A DNA stretch of 44,714 bases from a virus: IMG/VR virus record IMGVR_UViG_3300043395_002030, positions 1 to 44,714 of that record. The stretch is one strand, 5' to 3'. The notes below the pieces were generated by a model. That model made no database searches. It saw only the letters and a program-made list of their open reading frames with translations, and was not told where the DNA came from. The position numbers and the translations under genes are program-made. Below are positions 17,449 through 41,277 of this stretch, in pieces (the first letter of the stretch is position 1; every line of letters begins with the position of its first letter).

Positions 17449-17892
17449 ATGTCTAAAAATTTTGATAAGTTAAATGAGGTTTTCAACGTTGAAACCGAGA
17501 TTATAGAATCTAATATTGATCTTGTTAAGAAGGAAGATCAACCACAAAACATCAATGGTGTTACTAGTGATATAAAAAAGGATTATGAATACACTAGAGG
17601 AAATCTATATTCAATTATAGAAAAAGGTCAAGAAGCAATAAATGGTATTTTAGAACTTGCACAAGAAACTGAGCAAGCAAGGGCTTATGAAGTTGCTGGT
17701 CAATTGATTAAAAATGTTGCTGATGCAACAGAAAAGTTAATGGATCTTCAAAAGAAACTAAAGGATATTGAAGAGGTTAAACAAGTTAGTGGTCCAACAA
17801 ACGTCACTAATGCTCTTTTTGTAGGTTCAACCGCAGAATTATCTAAATTATTAAAAGCCCAAAAAGGAAATGTGAAAAATGAAAACGTTTAG
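17449..17892 (+). CDS. gp16: Terminase small subunit gp16
   Basis: This 147-residue, highly helical protein has the pattern 'DYEYTRGNLYSIIEKGQEAI' followed by 'ARAYEVAGQLIKNVADATEKL', the central coiled-coil region conserved in gp16 of T4-like phages (T4: 164 residues). gp16 forms an oligomeric ring that regulates gp17 during DNA packaging. It lies between gene 15 and the 51-residue gene, whose start overlaps its 3' end by 14 bases. Gene 17 follows after two accessory genes, whereas in T4 gene 17 follows 16 directly. Confidence 0.92.
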   Translation: MSKNFDKLNEVFNVETEIIESNIDLVKKEDQPQNINGVTSDIKKDYEYTRGNLYSIIEKGQEAINGILELAQETEQARAYEVAGQLIKNVADATEKLMDLQKKLKDIEEVKQVSGPTNVTNALFVGSTAELSKLLKAQKGNVKNENV

Positions 17893-18034
17893 GCAATTTC
17901 AAGAAGATTGGAGTAATAAATATAAAAAGAGTATTGATTGCTCCAATCCTAAAGGGTTTTCCCAACGCGCTCATTGTGCGGCAAGAAAAAAGAGAGCAAA
18001 GGGTGAAGAAACTAAGTCAAAACCAGTTGAATGA
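17879..18034 (+). CDS. Small basic protein with 'CSNPKGFSQRAHC' motif and capsid-targeting-like N-terminus
   Basis: This 51-residue gene starts inside the end of gene 16 and its stop overlaps the next start (ATGA at 18031), which supports translation. The core 'SIDCSNPKGFSQRAHCAARK' recurs in small cyanophage proteins of unknown function; the two Cys and one His could bind a metal ion. The N-terminus MKTFRQFQED resembles the capsid-targeting sequence of T4 internal proteins (such as IPIII, beginning MKTYQEF). With its basic tail and placement beside terminase genes, a packaged DNA-associated protein is plausible but unproven. Confidence 0.78.
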   Translation: MKTFRQFQEDWSNKYKKSIDCSNPKGFSQRAHCAARKKRAKGEETKSKPVE

Positions 18035-19749
18035 ACGAACAATTTAAGCCATTTAAAACAGTTGAAGAAATTGCTAAGAAGCATCGCCTAGATGTTTCTT
18101 TCATTGAGAAGCAACTCAAAATGGGTGAACCTATTGAGCACGAGCATACAAAAGATCACAAATTGGCAAGAGAAATTGCTCTTCAACATTTGGATGAAAT
18201 ACCAGATTATTATACAAGATTAAAAAAAATGGAAGCGGATGCTAAAAAGCATCACAAAAAATTTAAGGATGTTAAAGTCAATGAAGACTTAAGAGACTGG
18301 TTTTCAAAATCTCACCCCGAGGGAAATTGGAGAAGGTTTAATTCAAAAGGTGAAGCAATTGGACCTTGTGCCCGTGAACCTGGAGAATCAAAACCAAAGT
18401 GTTTATCAAATGAAAAGGCTGCAAAGATGTCAAAAAGTCAAATTGCTTCCGCTGTAAGAAGAAAAAGAGAAGAAGACCCCGTAGCAGACCGTAAAGGAAA
18501 AGGAGGAAAACCAAAAATGGTTTCTAATAAAATTTCTGAAGAACATAATCACGAGGAAGAAAGATATTGTCCTCTATGCGATAAAAGGGAAACAAGATCT
18601 CAGTGTTCTTATGGTGAAAAAACTTGGGATAAAATTTCTGTAAAAGATGAAGAGTACTCTATGGTAAGAGGAGAACTCAAAACTCTTATGGATGCTGCTA
18701 AGAGAATAGATTCTAGAGTTTCTAAAGGTGAAGGTAATTTAGAAGCCTGGGTACAATCAAAAATTACGAAAGCAACAGATTATCTTGACACTGCCGCAGA
18801 TTATCTCAACAGCGGAGAAGCAGAATTCCAGGAAGCTTGTTGGGTAGGATATAAGCAAGTTGGAATGAAAAAGAAAGGTAAGAGAGTTGTTCCAAACTGT
18901 GTGAAAGAGGAAGATATTCCATTAGCAGAGAAGATTCTTCTTGAGATTGAAGCAGAATCTCTGAGTGAAGAGAACAAACCAACTAATCCTGCATTATGGT
19001 CAAGAGCAAAATCTCTTGCAAAGAAAAAGTTTGATGTTTATCCAAGTGCATATGCCAATGGATGGGCTTCAAAGTGGTATAAGTCGAAAGGTGGCGGTTG
19101 GAAATCTGCAAATGAAAGTGTAACCATTGAAGATGCAAATGGAAATACTTTTGCAGAAATCATTGATATCATTAAACCAGAACCTCTTGTTGCAGAAGCA
19201 ACCAGACTTCAAGCACAGACTGGAAATGTTATTGCCGTAACTCTTCAATGGAGAGGAAAGTACTACGCTCTTCGTATGTTCTTCCCTCAAGCAAAACTTC
19301 CATCTAGAAAAGAAGTTACTGATGAGTTACAAAAGGTCTATCCAGGTTCTGTGGTTGTTCATCACTCAGTATCAGAACTCACTCAGGGACAACCACTAAT
19401 TCAAGTTGGACCACAAGGTGGAAGTTTTGCAAAACCAGGACCAAATAAGAATTATGTAAAACCAATGGGTGAAGAGGTTGAAATTCAAGAGGACTGGCAA
19501 TCAGTAAATCGTAAAGATAAAACTGATGGTCTCAGTCAGAAAGCTGTAAATTCTTATCGTCGTGAGAATCCAGGTTCAAAACTTCAGACTGCAGTAACTG
19601 AAAAAAAGCCTACGGGCAAAAGGGCTGAACGTCGCAAGTCCTTTTGCCGCAGAATGAAAGGGATGAAAAAGAGACTAACTTCTGCTGAAACTGCAAGAGA
19701 TCCGGATTCAAGAATCAATAAAGCTTTACGTCGTTGGAATTGTAATTAA
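18031..19749 (+). CDS. Composite basic multidomain protein between terminase genes
   Basis: This 572-residue protein appears to be a string of small cyanophage domains. In order: a DUF5661-like helical domain (about 1-70, 'IEHEHTKDHKLAREIALQHL'); a basic 'HPEGNWRRFNSKGEAIGPCA' unit (about 89-165, DUF6321-like); a Cys/His cluster (C180, C183, C192) like a zinc ribbon; a helical 'EYSMVRGELKTL' segment (208-262); a 'CWVGYKQVGMKKKGKRVVPNC' type unit (270-291); a 'NPALWSRAKSLAKKKF' unit (319-358, DUF5872-like); a 'YPGS' mini-domain (about 395-452) also found at 26221 and 43695; and a very basic Cys-containing tail (about 505-572). Domain names are from memory. The charge suggests nucleic-acid contact, perhaps in packaging or as an internal protein. 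Function is unknown. Confidence 0.85.
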   Translation: MNEQFKPFKTVEEIAKKHRLDVSFIEKQLKMGEPIEHEHTKDHKLAREIALQHLDEIPDYYTRLKKMEADAKKHHKKFKDVKVNEDLRDWFSKSHPEGNWRRFNSKGEAIGPCAREPGESKPKCLSNEKAAKMSKSQIASAVRRKREEDPVADRKGKGGKPKMVSNKISEEHNHEEERYCPLCDKRETRSQCSYGEKTWDKISVKDEEYSMVRGELKTLMDAAKRIDSRVSKGEGNLEAWVQSKITKATDYLDTAADYLNSGEAEFQEACWVGYKQVGMKKKGKRVVPNCVKEEDIPLAEKILLEIEAESLSEENKPTNPALWSRAKSLAKKKFDVYPSAYANGWASKWYKSKGGGWKSANESVTIEDANGNTFAEIIDIIKPEPLVAEATRLQAQTGNVIAVTLQWRGKYYALRMFFPQAKLPSRKEVTDELQKVYPGSVVVHHSVSELTQGQPLIQVGPQGGSFAKPGPNKNYVKPMGEEVEIQEDWQSVNRKDKTDGLSQKAVNSYRRENPGSKLQTAVTEKKPTGKRAERRKSFCRRMKGMKKRLTSAETARDPDSRINKALRRWNCN

Positions 19750-19765: not shown

Positions 19766-21409
19766 ATGGCTGATCATTATCTTGGTAATCCCCTTCTTAA
19801 GAAGGCAAATACTGTTGTTGAATTTACTGAAGAACAGGTCCTAGAGTTTGCTAGGTGCCAAGAAGATCCGATTTACTTTGCAAAAAATTATATTCAAATC
19901 GTTACTTTGGATTATGGTTTGCAACCATTTAAACCATATCCTTTTCAGGAAACGATGATTGAACGTTTTCACAATCATAGATTTAATGTTTGCAAACTTC
20001 CAAGACAGTCTGGAAAGTCAACCATTGTTGTTTCTTATCTTTTACATTACGCAATTTTTAATGATAATGTAAATATTGCAATTCTTGCTAACAAAGCATC
20101 GACTGCAAAAGATCTACTAGATAGATTGCAAACAGCATATGAAAATTTACCCAAGTGGTTACAGCAAGGTGTGATGACTTGGAACAAGGCTTCTTTGGAG
20201 TTGGAAAATGGGTCAAAAATTATTGCTGCTTCTACTAGCGCCTCTGCGGTACGCGGTGGCTCTTATAATATTATATTCCTGGACGAATTTGCGTTTATTC
20301 CTAACCACATTGCTGATCAGTTTTTCAGTTCTGTTTATCCTACTATTTCATCTGGTAAAAACACTAAGGTAATTATTGTTTCTACCCCTCACGGGATGAA
20401 TCATTTTTACAAAATTTGGCACGATGCCGAAAGAAGTAAAAATGAGTATATTCCAACAGATGTTCATTGGTCTGAGGTTCCTGGTAGGGATGAAAAGTGG
20501 AAAGCACAAACTATTGCAAACACATCAGAACAACAATTTAAGGTTGAGTTTGAATGTGAATTCTTAGGATCTGTTGATACTTTGATTGCTCCTAGCAAAT
20601 TGAGAAATCTTGTTTATGAGAATCCAAAGGCAAGAAATGCTGGATTAGATGTTTTCGATGATCCTATTGAGGAACACGATTATGTCATTACCGTTGACGT
20701 TGCAAGAGGTGTTGGTAATGATTACTCAGCATTTGTTGTAATAGACATAACAAAATATCCACACGAAATAGTAGCAAAGTATAGAAATAATGAAATAAAA
20801 CCGATGCTTTTTCCAAGTATCATTCACGATATAGCAAAAAGTTATAATAATGCATATATTTTATGTGAGGTAAATGATATTGGAGATCAAGTTGCAAGTA
20901 TTATTCAATATGATTTGGAATATAATAATTTATTGATGTGCTCAATGAGAGGTAGAGCAGGTCAGATTGTTGGTCAAGGATTTTCTGGAAAGAAAACTCA
21001 ACTTGGCGTAAAAATGTCCAAGACTGTCAAAAAAGTTGGATGTTTAAACCTAAAAACTTTAATTGAAGAGGAAAAGTTACTGTTTAAAGACTATGATATT
21101 ATAAGTGAACTTACAACTTTTATTCAAAAAAATAATTCCTTTGAGGCAGAGGATGGATGTAATGACGACCTTGCAATGTGCTTGGTCATATATTCTTGGT
21201 TAGTAGTTCAAGATTATTTTAAGGAACTTACTGATCAGGATGTAAGAAAAAGATTATATGAGGAACAAAAAAATCAAATTGAGCAAGATATGGCTCCATT
21301 TGGATTTGTGGTAGATGGTACTGAAGATAGTAGTTTTATAGATGAAAACGGTGAAAGATGGTTCACTGACGAGTATGGGGATATGTCTTATATGTGGGAT
21401 TACGTCTAA
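19766..21409 (+). CDS. gp17: Terminase large subunit gp17
   Basis: gp17 is the packaging motor: it cuts concatemeric DNA and pumps it into the prohead through the portal. The ATPase domain has a Walker A-type loop (CKLPRQSGKST, residues 76-86) and a Walker B (IIFLDEF, D173 E174). The RNase H-like nuclease domain shows its first acidic residue in 'VITVDVARG' (D311), a second in 'ILCEVNDIGDQ' and a third in 'DGCNDDLAM', matching the D/E/D triad of T4 gp17. At 547 residues it is slightly shorter than T4 (610). It is complete, with no inserted intron or intein. Confidence 0.96.
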   Translation: MADHYLGNPLLKKANTVVEFTEEQVLEFARCQEDPIYFAKNYIQIVTLDYGLQPFKPYPFQETMIERFHNHRFNVCKLPRQSGKSTIVVSYLLHYAIFNDNVNIAILANKASTAKDLLDRLQTAYENLPKWLQQGVMTWNKASLELENGSKIIAASTSASAVRGGSYNIIFLDEFAFIPNHIADQFFSSVYPTISSGKNTKVIIVSTPHGMNHFYKIWHDAERSKNEYIPTDVHWSEVPGRDEKWKAQTIANTSEQQFKVEFECEFLGSVDTLIAPSKLRNLVYENPKARNAGLDVFDDPIEEHDYVITVDVARGVGNDYSAFVVIDITKYPHEIVAKYRNNEIKPMLFPSIIHDIAKSYNNAYILCEVNDIGDQVASIIQYDLEYNNLLMCSMRGRAGQIVGQGFSGKKTQLGVKMSKTVKKVGCLNLKTLIEEEKLLFKDYDIISELTTFIQKNNSFEAEDGCNDDLAMCLVIYSWLVVQDYFKELTDQDVRKRLYEEQKNQIEQDMAPFGFVVDGTEDSSFIDENGERWFTDEYGDMSYMWDYV

Positions 21410-26050: not shown

Positions 26051-26218
26051 ATGGACGAATTAATGGATATGATTGTGGCTGATGAGTCACCATCACAAAT
26101 TAGCGATAAAATCAAAGATCTTCTATTTTCAAAAGCCGCAGAAAAGGTTGATTCCTTCAGACCAGCCGTTGCAGCGACTCTATTTGGTGAAGAGGAAGAA
26201 GAAACCGAAGAGGAATAA
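26051..26218 (+). CDS. gp67: Prohead core protein, gp67-like
   Basis: This 55-residue frame lies directly after the portal gene, where T4 has gene 67. Its layout is that of gp67: a short amphipathic N-terminal region (MDELMDMIVADESPSQISDK), a basic-hydrophobic helix containing 'AAEKVDSFRPAVA', and an acidic tail rich in Glu (from residue 47). gp67 is a minor scaffold component removed or trimmed by the gp21 protease. Start ATG at 26051; stop at 26216-26218, two bases before the next gene. The assignment rests on position and composition, since the protein is much shorter than T4 gp67 (80 residues). Confidence 0.82.
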   Translation: MDELMDMIVADESPSQISDKIKDLLFSKAAEKVDSFRPAVAATLFGEEEEETEEE

Positions 26219-26220
26219 AA

Positions 26221-26541
26221 ATGAAATCCTTCAAACAATTCATCTCAGAATCAGTAAACATTTCCGGAGATTTTAACGGAAATCTTTATATCAACTCTAA
26301 TCAACAAGAACCACAAGAAGTTGGTGAAGAGTATGTTGCAGATGTTTTGTGGAATGGAAGTCTCTATAGGATGGAATTAACCACTAATAATGGAATTCCA
26401 TCTAAACAGTCTTTAGGTGAACAATTGCAATCAGAGTATCCAGGAGCGGTTGTCCATCAAATTTATCCAGTTCTAGAAAAAAATTATAATATTAAAAACG
26501 CAAAAAGATACCACCCATCAAAATTAGAATGGATTGATTGA
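26221..26541 (+). CDS. Gene 68-position protein with capsid-targeting-like N-terminus
   Basis: This 106-residue protein lies between the gene 67-like frame and the head accessory genes, the position of T4 gene 68. The N-terminus MKSFKQFISES resembles the T4 capsid-targeting sequence, and 'FISE/S' fits the gp21 cleavage preference (hydrophobic-x-Glu before a small residue). The body (about residues 38-90) is a compact beta-beta-alpha-beta type unit with 'W-x-G-x-x-Y' and 'SEYPGAVV'. It can be aligned by eye with residues 395-452 of the 572-residue protein at 18031. A prohead core or internal role is inferred. Sequence likeness to T4 gp68 is not evident. Confidence 0.8.
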   Translation: MKSFKQFISESVNISGDFNGNLYINSNQQEPQEVGEEYVADVLWNGSLYRMELTTNNGIPSKQSLGEQLQSEYPGAVVHQIYPVLEKNYNIKNAKRYHPSKLEWID

Positions 26542-40629: not shown

Positions 40630-41277
40630 ATGCAGTTCCAGGAAGAATATCTTGACGAAAGGACATTAATGAAAATGAAAAAGTCTGGGAAATCTGGCAC
40701 TATGCCCATTCCTGGTTCTGAAGGTGCTGCTAGAAAAGATGTTGCTCGTGCTGGATTTAGAAAAAAAGGTCCAGTAAGAGAACCTGAAGTTGAAAAAAGT
40801 GGAAAAGATGTTCCTGTTTGGGTAAGAACTCATAAGTCTCCTGCAGAGTATGCTGCCCATACTGCTAAGAAACAACATAAAGAAGGAGATAAACCACAAA
40901 GTAAAGAGTTGAAAAAACAGTTTCATAAGACTGGAGCCAAAAAAGATTCTCCAGTTCATGATATAACTGTTGGTTCTCCAAAAAAATCAATCAAAGATCC
41001 TGGCCAAAAAGCAAGGGCATTTGTGAGTGCTTTGAAAACCACAAAAGAAAAAATGAAAGAAAAGAAAGGAGTTGCAACCAATACTCCCACTGCTATTCAT
41101 TCTACTGGTAAAAAAAGAAAAAGAAGTGATGAGGAAGGTGCCGAGCAGCGAGGTAGAATATATGGTAAACTTGGTATGGGAGAAAGAAATCCTAAAACAG
41201 GAGTTCAGATGGCTAAACTTAAAGAAGGAAAGACCTTTGCACAATTTATGAGTGAATGTAAGAAATATGAAAACTAA
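40630..41277 (+). CDS. Late-type basic protein with C-terminal capsid-targeting-like motif
   Basis: This 215-residue protein is strongly basic, Lys/Gly/Pro-rich, with little predicted hydrophobic core, so it is probably extended. It contains 'GSEGAARKDVARAGFRKKGP', 'PVWVRTHKSPAEYAAHTAKK' and 'AEQRGRIYGKLGMGERNPKT'. The C-terminus 'GKTFAQFMSECKKYEN' resembles the T4 capsid-targeting and gp21-cleavage motif, which normally lies at the N-terminus. Together with the late promoter this suggests a DNA-associated internal head protein, which is inference. No family is recognised. It lies between the VWA and AAA+ genes; the next gene overlaps its end by 11 bases. Confidence 0.78.
   Translation: MQFQEEYLDERTLMKMKKSGKSGTMPIPGSEGAARKDVARAGFRKKGPVREPEVEKSGKDVPVWVRTHKSPAEYAAHTAKKQHKEGDKPQSKELKKQFHKTGAKKDSPVHDITVGSPKKSIKDPGQKARAFVSALKTTKEKMKEKKGVATNTPTAIHSTGKKRKRSDEEGAEQRGRIYGKLGMGERNPKTGVQMAKLKEGKTFAQFMSECKKYEN

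Follow-up and report, generated by a model that had tools for sequence, protein, structure and literature searches.

The internal proteins of phage T4 bear a 10-residue N-terminal sequence that directs them into the prohead core and is later removed by gp21. Targeting depends on residues 4 and 7 of this sequence and processing on residues 8 and 10, and an Asp at position 10 blocks processing while targeting is kept (PMC9026906). Both IPII and IPIII begin with MKTYQEFIAEA, as read from the T4 record. The defence-against-restriction head proteins, DarB of phage P1 among them, are accessory proteins that are loaded through an N-terminal signal and are thought to enter the cell (PMC9024508). A further class, the polyvalent proteins encoded by phages and conjugative elements, has a large enzymatic share and often includes a processing metallopeptidase (PMC5512222, whose main text contains neither "cyanophage" nor "Synechococcus").

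Among T4-like cyanophages, the interval between gp16 and gp17 is listed in the 2010 cyanomyovirus comparison (PMC3037559) as a hot spot of Synechococcus-phage-enriched genes, an observation that goes back to Millard et al. 2009. Separation of the two terminase genes is therefore not new. The protein family T4-GC119 (phrog_727) is also already known. Its cluster records include members from S-SM2, S-SM1 and S-P4 (2010 cyanomyovirus comparison), and the family label is "DUF6321 domain-containing protein", with one record carrying the product name "structural protein". No description of the function or modular anatomy of T4-GC119 was found in the literature searched.

We analyzed a window of 44,714 bases (the whole stretch of DNA under study), which is an uncultivated viral contig whose DNA-level kin are T4-like cyanophages, P-TIM68 and S-SM2 among them. 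It encodes a 572-residue protein that compares in different ways with the systems above. The protein shares with T4 IPI, IPII, IPIII and Alt a basic character, variability between phages and a probable place in the virion, and stand-alone module proteins linked to it carry the T4 type of 10-residue tag, whereas the protein itself is tagless and multi-module. The searches that were run found no sequence similarity between it and the T4 internal proteins. Like polyvalent proteins, it has many domains per chain, lies near virion genes and has relatives with effector-like domains, but its modules are much smaller and, by Pfam, include no enzyme domain or metallopeptidase (PMC5512222). The likeness to P1 DarB, compared by description, is to the class of accessory head-loaded proteins, whereas DarB is one protein of 250 kDa. 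Accessory virion cargo of T4-like phages is known, and the 572-residue protein would be a modular form of it.

A modular gene between the terminase genes

The open reading frame (18031 to 19749, plus strand) begins with ATG and contains zero internal stops. Upstream lies gp16, the terminase small subunit (17449 to 17892, plus strand; PF11053, phrog_445), and downstream lies gp17, the large subunit (19766 to 21409, plus strand; PF03237, PF17289). These Pfam profiles confirm the location between the terminase genes that a first-pass annotation of this DNA had proposed. That annotation was also correct that a small basic gene separates gp16 from the longer one: positions 17879 to 18034 (plus strand) encode a 51-residue basic protein (MKTFRQFQEDWSNKYKKSIDCSNPKGFSQRAHC...) with a Cys-pair module after its N-terminus. 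The gene row is tight, with an overlap of 14 bases between gp16 and the 51-residue reading frame, a second overlap of 4 bases into the 572-residue reading frame, and 16 bases from the end of the latter to gp17. The long protein is very basic, as had been noted, with a pI of 9.38 and a net charge of +25 (K+R-D-E), and it contains 9 Cys and 12 His. It matches the phrog_727 profile over residues 39 to 571 (E=3.5e-70), and it shares with this family, which is its own, a C-terminal DUF6321 domain and the gp16-gp17 slot, whereas it differs from other members in module content and order.

Pfam recognizes two families in the whole protein, DUF5661 (residues 12 to 68, E=8.7e-15) and DUF6321 (PF19846; residues 495 to 569, E=1.3e-15, 58.2 bits versus a cut-off of 28.5), and leaves about six further modules without a family. 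The remaining sequence was split into six segments, B to G, for which profiles were made by iterative search. Matches of a segment profile to itself are no proof of modularity; recurrence elsewhere is. All modules are on the plus strand. Module A (18043 to 18246, residues 5 to 72 by module HMM) is the helical DUF5661 domain (PF18905). Module B (18280 to 18525, residues 84 to 165) has the pattern LRDWF...PCA..PG..PKC with one Cys pair and occurs as its own gene in pelagiphage-like loci. Module C (18550 to 18639, residues 174 to 203; YCPLC...C) is the sole segment with a CxxC metal-type pattern and is folded in the AF2 model, and it is followed by the two long helices of module D (18637 to 18816, residues 203 to 262). 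Module E (18826 to 18909, residues 266 to 293; CWxGY...NCV) has one Cys pair and is found as a stand-alone protein with a tag-like start in two other loci (L148 and L199). Module F (18970 to 19104, residues 314 to 358) contains YPSAYANGWA. Module G (19183 to 19389, residues 385 to 453) has a beta-beta-alpha-beta fold and a tagged stand-alone form of ~106 residues, and the C-terminal module H (19474 to 19746, residues 482 to 572) is the basic, helical DUF6321 domain with an invariant Cys pair. Module F had been expected to represent Pfam DUF5872, a name that was abandoned when the Pfam search gave no such match.

The earlier proposal that several segments resemble separate DUF families holds for DUF5661 and DUF6321 but not for the others, which have no Pfam family. 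A Cys/His cluster was likewise proposed, and its metal-like part is confined to residues 180 to 192, where CPLC...C and a nearby His could form a putative zinc site. Outside this segment, cysteines come as one pair to a module (113/124, 270/290 and 539/571), and the argument for function from metal-binding residues applies to that one segment and not to the rest of the protein.

At full length, AF2 gave a poor model (pLDDT 48.7) of folded islands and disordered linkers, which served for a beads-on-a-string picture only. With a deeper alignment, AF2 predicts G as beta-beta-alpha-beta and H as helical at a pLDDT of about 80 to 90. Neither the whole protein nor a G-H profile matched any PDB sequence, and a Foldseek search of the G-H model against the PDB gave no significant match (best E 0.84). 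In BFVD, the structure search matched relatives of DUF6321 together with phage proteins that are uncharacterised, headed by one named "Virion protein" of S-SCSM1. The top, non-significant Foldseek rows for the G-H model (E about 1) include YkzG and T7 Gp2, which are small RNA-polymerase-binding folds.

The segments turn up rearranged in other proteins and also as genes of their own, which chance would not produce, and we therefore regard them as real modules. Together with the intact reading frame, this bears out the mosaic described in the first-pass annotation. There are 39 module orders among the multi-module proteins of the fetched loci, including the inversions A-D/D-A, B-C/C-B and B-E/E-B, while DUF6321 is the final module in 96 of 98 such proteins and ends there at most one residue from the C-terminus. 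Modules are also fused to HicA-, DUF192- and cytidylyltransferase-like domains in relatives. The S-SM2 family member (L001, 3204 to 5330) contains a folded DUF192 domain inside the mosaic (E=3.6e-24). Another contig encodes a 629-residue protein (L147, 3091 to 4980, plus strand) that starts MKFLDFIDE, has cytidylyltransferase-like and Zeta-toxin/kinase-like matches together with module B, and is encoded immediately before a stand-alone DUF6321 gene that bears a tag.

Elsewhere, the same modules are separate genes beside head genes. T7-like cyanophage P-SCSP1g has an 84-residue DUF6321 gene directly 3′ of its major capsid gene, and in pelagiphage HTVC023P the separate H, F and B genes all follow the capsid gene at a distance of no more than about 7 kb. 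At least 10 viral contigs from a podophage-like group encode F, B and H in three small neighboring genes, and several of these contigs have a capsid gene of the pelagiphage type near the triplet. Because modules that are fused in one genome are adjacent in another, they likely work together.

Relatives in virions and putative capsid targeting tags

Homologues have been detected in virions of one cyanophage and labelled as virion proteins in another, which supports a virion role. S-CREM2 has two slot genes, gp136 and gp137. Mass spectrometry of its virions recovered 8 unique peptides of gp136 and 4 of gp137 (4.1% coverage for gp137), along with 7 peptides of gp160 (PMC10665884). The gp137 protein ends with modules G and H, and gp160, encoded about 20 kb away, has modules B and E with a module-F-like stretch at its end. 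Peptide support for these relatives is thin, and the S-CREM2 authors caution that co-purification is possible. The slot protein of S-SCSM1, gp029, comprises modules B, E, C, G and H, and its record gives it the label "virion protein". We counted 47 such labels versus 45 detected proteins in the S-SCSM1 paper, and the label therefore probably reflects detection. These detections and labels concern presence in the virion, not position within the particle. We had also considered whether S-SM1 proteomics showed T4-GC119 to be structural, which that phage's own annotation does not support: its member is a "hypothetical protein", though the S-SM1 virion proteome was analyzed and other genes are labelled structural. 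The Syn9 member, gp114, has no structural label either.

Candidate targeting tags were sought with the pattern M.{1,3}[FYLW]..[FWY][LIMVFQ].E, starting within the first 13 residues. An initial pattern, with T or S at position 3, was too narrow and was loosened after the S-CREM2 proteins had been viewed. The tests on S-SCSM1, viral contigs and NMNAT proteins came after this loosening and included a minor widening (one extra residue, start within the first 13). Contrary to expectation, the N-terminus of the 572-residue protein (MNEQFKPFKTVEEIAKK) has no tag of the internal-protein type ending in Glu, and among multi-module H proteins the rate is 1 of 72. Its neighbors differ in this respect. A stand-alone module-G protein of 106 residues (26221 to 26541, plus strand; phrog_1742), encoded two genes past the portal gene, starts with MKSFKQFISE, a close match to MKTYQEFIAE of T4. 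The 51-residue protein starts with the variant MKTFRQFQED, which has E at position 9 and D at position 10, and its homologues of like length all start with MKTF[KR][QE]F[QKR]E.

Small prohead core proteins of T4 are encoded right after the portal gene. In the window, the gene directly 3′ of the portal gene encodes an acidic 55-residue protein (26051 to 26218, plus strand; pI 4.05, phrog_14164), which might be a partner of the tagged proteins in the core.

In viral contigs, 25 of 27 stand-alone G proteins carry the tag; among H proteins that stand alone the count is 4 of 48 (MKTFIQFIEE in L147 and MLTFQEFITE in L153, for instance), and among other reading frames 18 of 3201. The majority of stand-alone H proteins, many of which come from podophage-like loci, are tagless. 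The stand-alone form of module E has the tag-like start M[VI]TFKEFITEKGRCWTGYKP. A 208-residue protein (L175, 4638 to 5264, plus strand) with the tag MKTFKAFISE joins a HicA toxin domain (PF07927, E=1.1e-12) to module E and DUF6321. On a DUF6321-bearing contig, a 635-residue protein (L142, 6763 to 8670, plus strand) begins with the tag-like MRLREFIVE and matches an amidoligase family (PF12224, E=1.1e-8).

The pattern also occurs on virion-detected enzymes. In S-CREM2 it is present in 5 of 52 detected versus 2 of 167 undetected proteins (p=0.009), a count that is weak alone because the pattern was loosened after inspection of the same proteins. The five are a SAM hydrolase, gp13, an APH kinase, a cytidylyltransferase and gp136. 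Within one part of the S-CREM2 genome (OR473000; L122, 3837 to 12846, minus strand), the virion-detected proteins gp6 (SAM hydrolase), gp13 and gp14 (APH kinase) start with MKDFDSFLEE, MKDLHSFLTE and MKRFDAFLTE, and the virion-detected cytidylyltransferase gp154 (L124, 26109 to 26969) starts with MKNFSSFLTE. Cas9 of the same phage (gp12) has RFASFMAE near its N-terminus. Such tags may explain how these enzymes are loaded. The tests made after the loosening are stronger. In S-SCSM1, two genes only have the tag at the annotated start, those for gp030, which is a G protein, and for gp281, the virion NMNAT. Non-redundant NMNAT relatives of gp281 have it in 22 of 22 cases versus 3 of 635 other nearby reading frames, the 22 being homologous and hence non-independent.

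Two further proteins of the window contain related strings. The major capsid protein contains SGSFLTEAP in its N-terminal region and shares the string FLTE with the gp154 tag. A basic 215-residue protein (40630 to 41277, plus strand; pI 10.0), which has no match in Pfam and PHROG searches, ends with a targeting-like motif (GKTFAQFMSECKKYEN). In T4, Alt is a protein that is cut at its C-terminus.

No description of capsid targeting sequences in cyanophages was found in the searchable, non-subscription literature. The new element is a putative targeting tag, recognized by sequence pattern, on stand-alone modules, on neighbors and on virion-detected cyanophage enzymes.

A candidate head cargo protein and its alternatives

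We propose, with a probability of roughly 0.6, that the reading frame encodes a virion-associated, multi-module cargo protein of T4-like cyanophages, probably internal to the head and ejected. Several small, mostly basic modules would be strung on flexible linkers, with the conserved DUF6321 module closing the chain. Small folded modules and a positive net charge would fit co-packaging alongside DNA, and the variable make-up and the HicA-, DUF192- and cytidylyltransferase-like fusions would fit action in a new host. The long form would reside inside the head, where basic modules may touch DNA, and would enter the cell with the genome. There, by analogy with T4 IPI, the cargo could act against host defences, for example. 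Ejection is favored indirectly, by the predicted capsid-targeting tags on the stand-alone module proteins. The weak point of the cargo reading is the loading step: the 572-residue protein has no N-terminal tag and would therefore require another contact, which might be the core, the portal, terminase or a tagged partner.

Sites of the type [ILMF]xE are cut by gp21 in T4. They precede module E in 46 of 68 cases, H in 50 of 70 and B in 16 of 38, versus shuffled means of 18.6, 24.7 and 5.2, an enrichment inflated by relatedness of the sequences. A few relatives have internal tag-like strings (TFQQFQEKCW in Syn9, SFQDFQEKA in S-SM1). These junctions and strings suggest that long forms arose when small proteins with tags were fused, and that cleavage may still take place. 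A stronger form of this idea, which we consider unlikely, is a polyprotein of head cargo in which the prohead protease would cut at [ILMF]xE junctions and free small, Cys-paired basic effectors for ejection with the genome; recombination of modules into the slot would swap effectors, and other phages would tag the same modules separately.

A packaging accessory that binds both DNA and gp16/gp17, regulates terminase or headful packaging and leaves traces in virions would be consistent with the short gene junctions, the basic charge and the few peptides in S-CREM2. It would also fit the finding that in 70 of 70 loci with both terminase genes the interval separating them (1.0 to 5.5 kb) contains a gene with module G or H, a sample picked by likeness to gp17, the 572-residue protein or DUF6321, and thus biased and no census. 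However, the gap elsewhere also houses fibre-like and metabolic genes, and because the region is variable in general, a place next to terminase is not very informative; the packaging role suggested in the first-pass annotation is unsupported on this ground. Moreover, modules of other phages adjoin capsid rather than terminase genes, module content seems too variable for a motor partner, and the S-CREM2 modules are split across two distant loci whose products are both in virions. We judge this reading rather improbable. Slightly harder to sustain is genome condensation only, in which basic modules neutralize packaged DNA and do no more. The lysines of T4 internal proteins do touch packaged DNA (PMC3012670), and the pI of 9.4 and the charges of modules H (+13), B (+8) and F (+8) are in keeping with such a role, but modules A, C, D and G have little or no charge or are folded, apparent abundance is low in S-CREM2, and neither module shuffling nor the fusions to HicA-, DUF192- and cytidylyltransferase-like domains are accounted for.

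The variable virion-gene slot also encodes fibre or structural proteins (S-SM2_107, S-SCSM1 gp026-028), as would suit a neck, tail or fibre-associated structural protein, yet fibre- or tail-like folds and repeats are absent, the significant structure matches lead to DUF6321 relatives and uncharacterised phage proteins, and the linked G, E and H modules bear head-targeting tags, not tail features. This makes a role in the neck, tail or fibres very unlikely. Equally remote, in our estimate, is a non-virion late regulatory protein whose detection reflects contamination of virion preparations; the low peptide numbers, the co-purification caution and the unlabelled S-SM1 and Syn9 members would agree with it, whereas the evidence from two independent phages and the detection of the separate, module-bearing gp160 argue against it.

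The cargo reading bears on a wider pattern. Cyanophage virions repeatedly hold host-acting proteins (SAM hydrolase, kinase, NMNAT and Cas9) whose loading route is not known, and contamination as their source is something that the authors of those studies were unable to exclude. A T4-type tag common to such enzymes and to stand-alone modules would provide a simple, testable rule for head loading. If the proposal is true, a highly variable virion-gene slot of marine T4-like phages would join the injected-cargo systems, and DUF6321, which pelagiphages share with T4-like and T7-like cyanophages, would gain a likely setting in the phage head.
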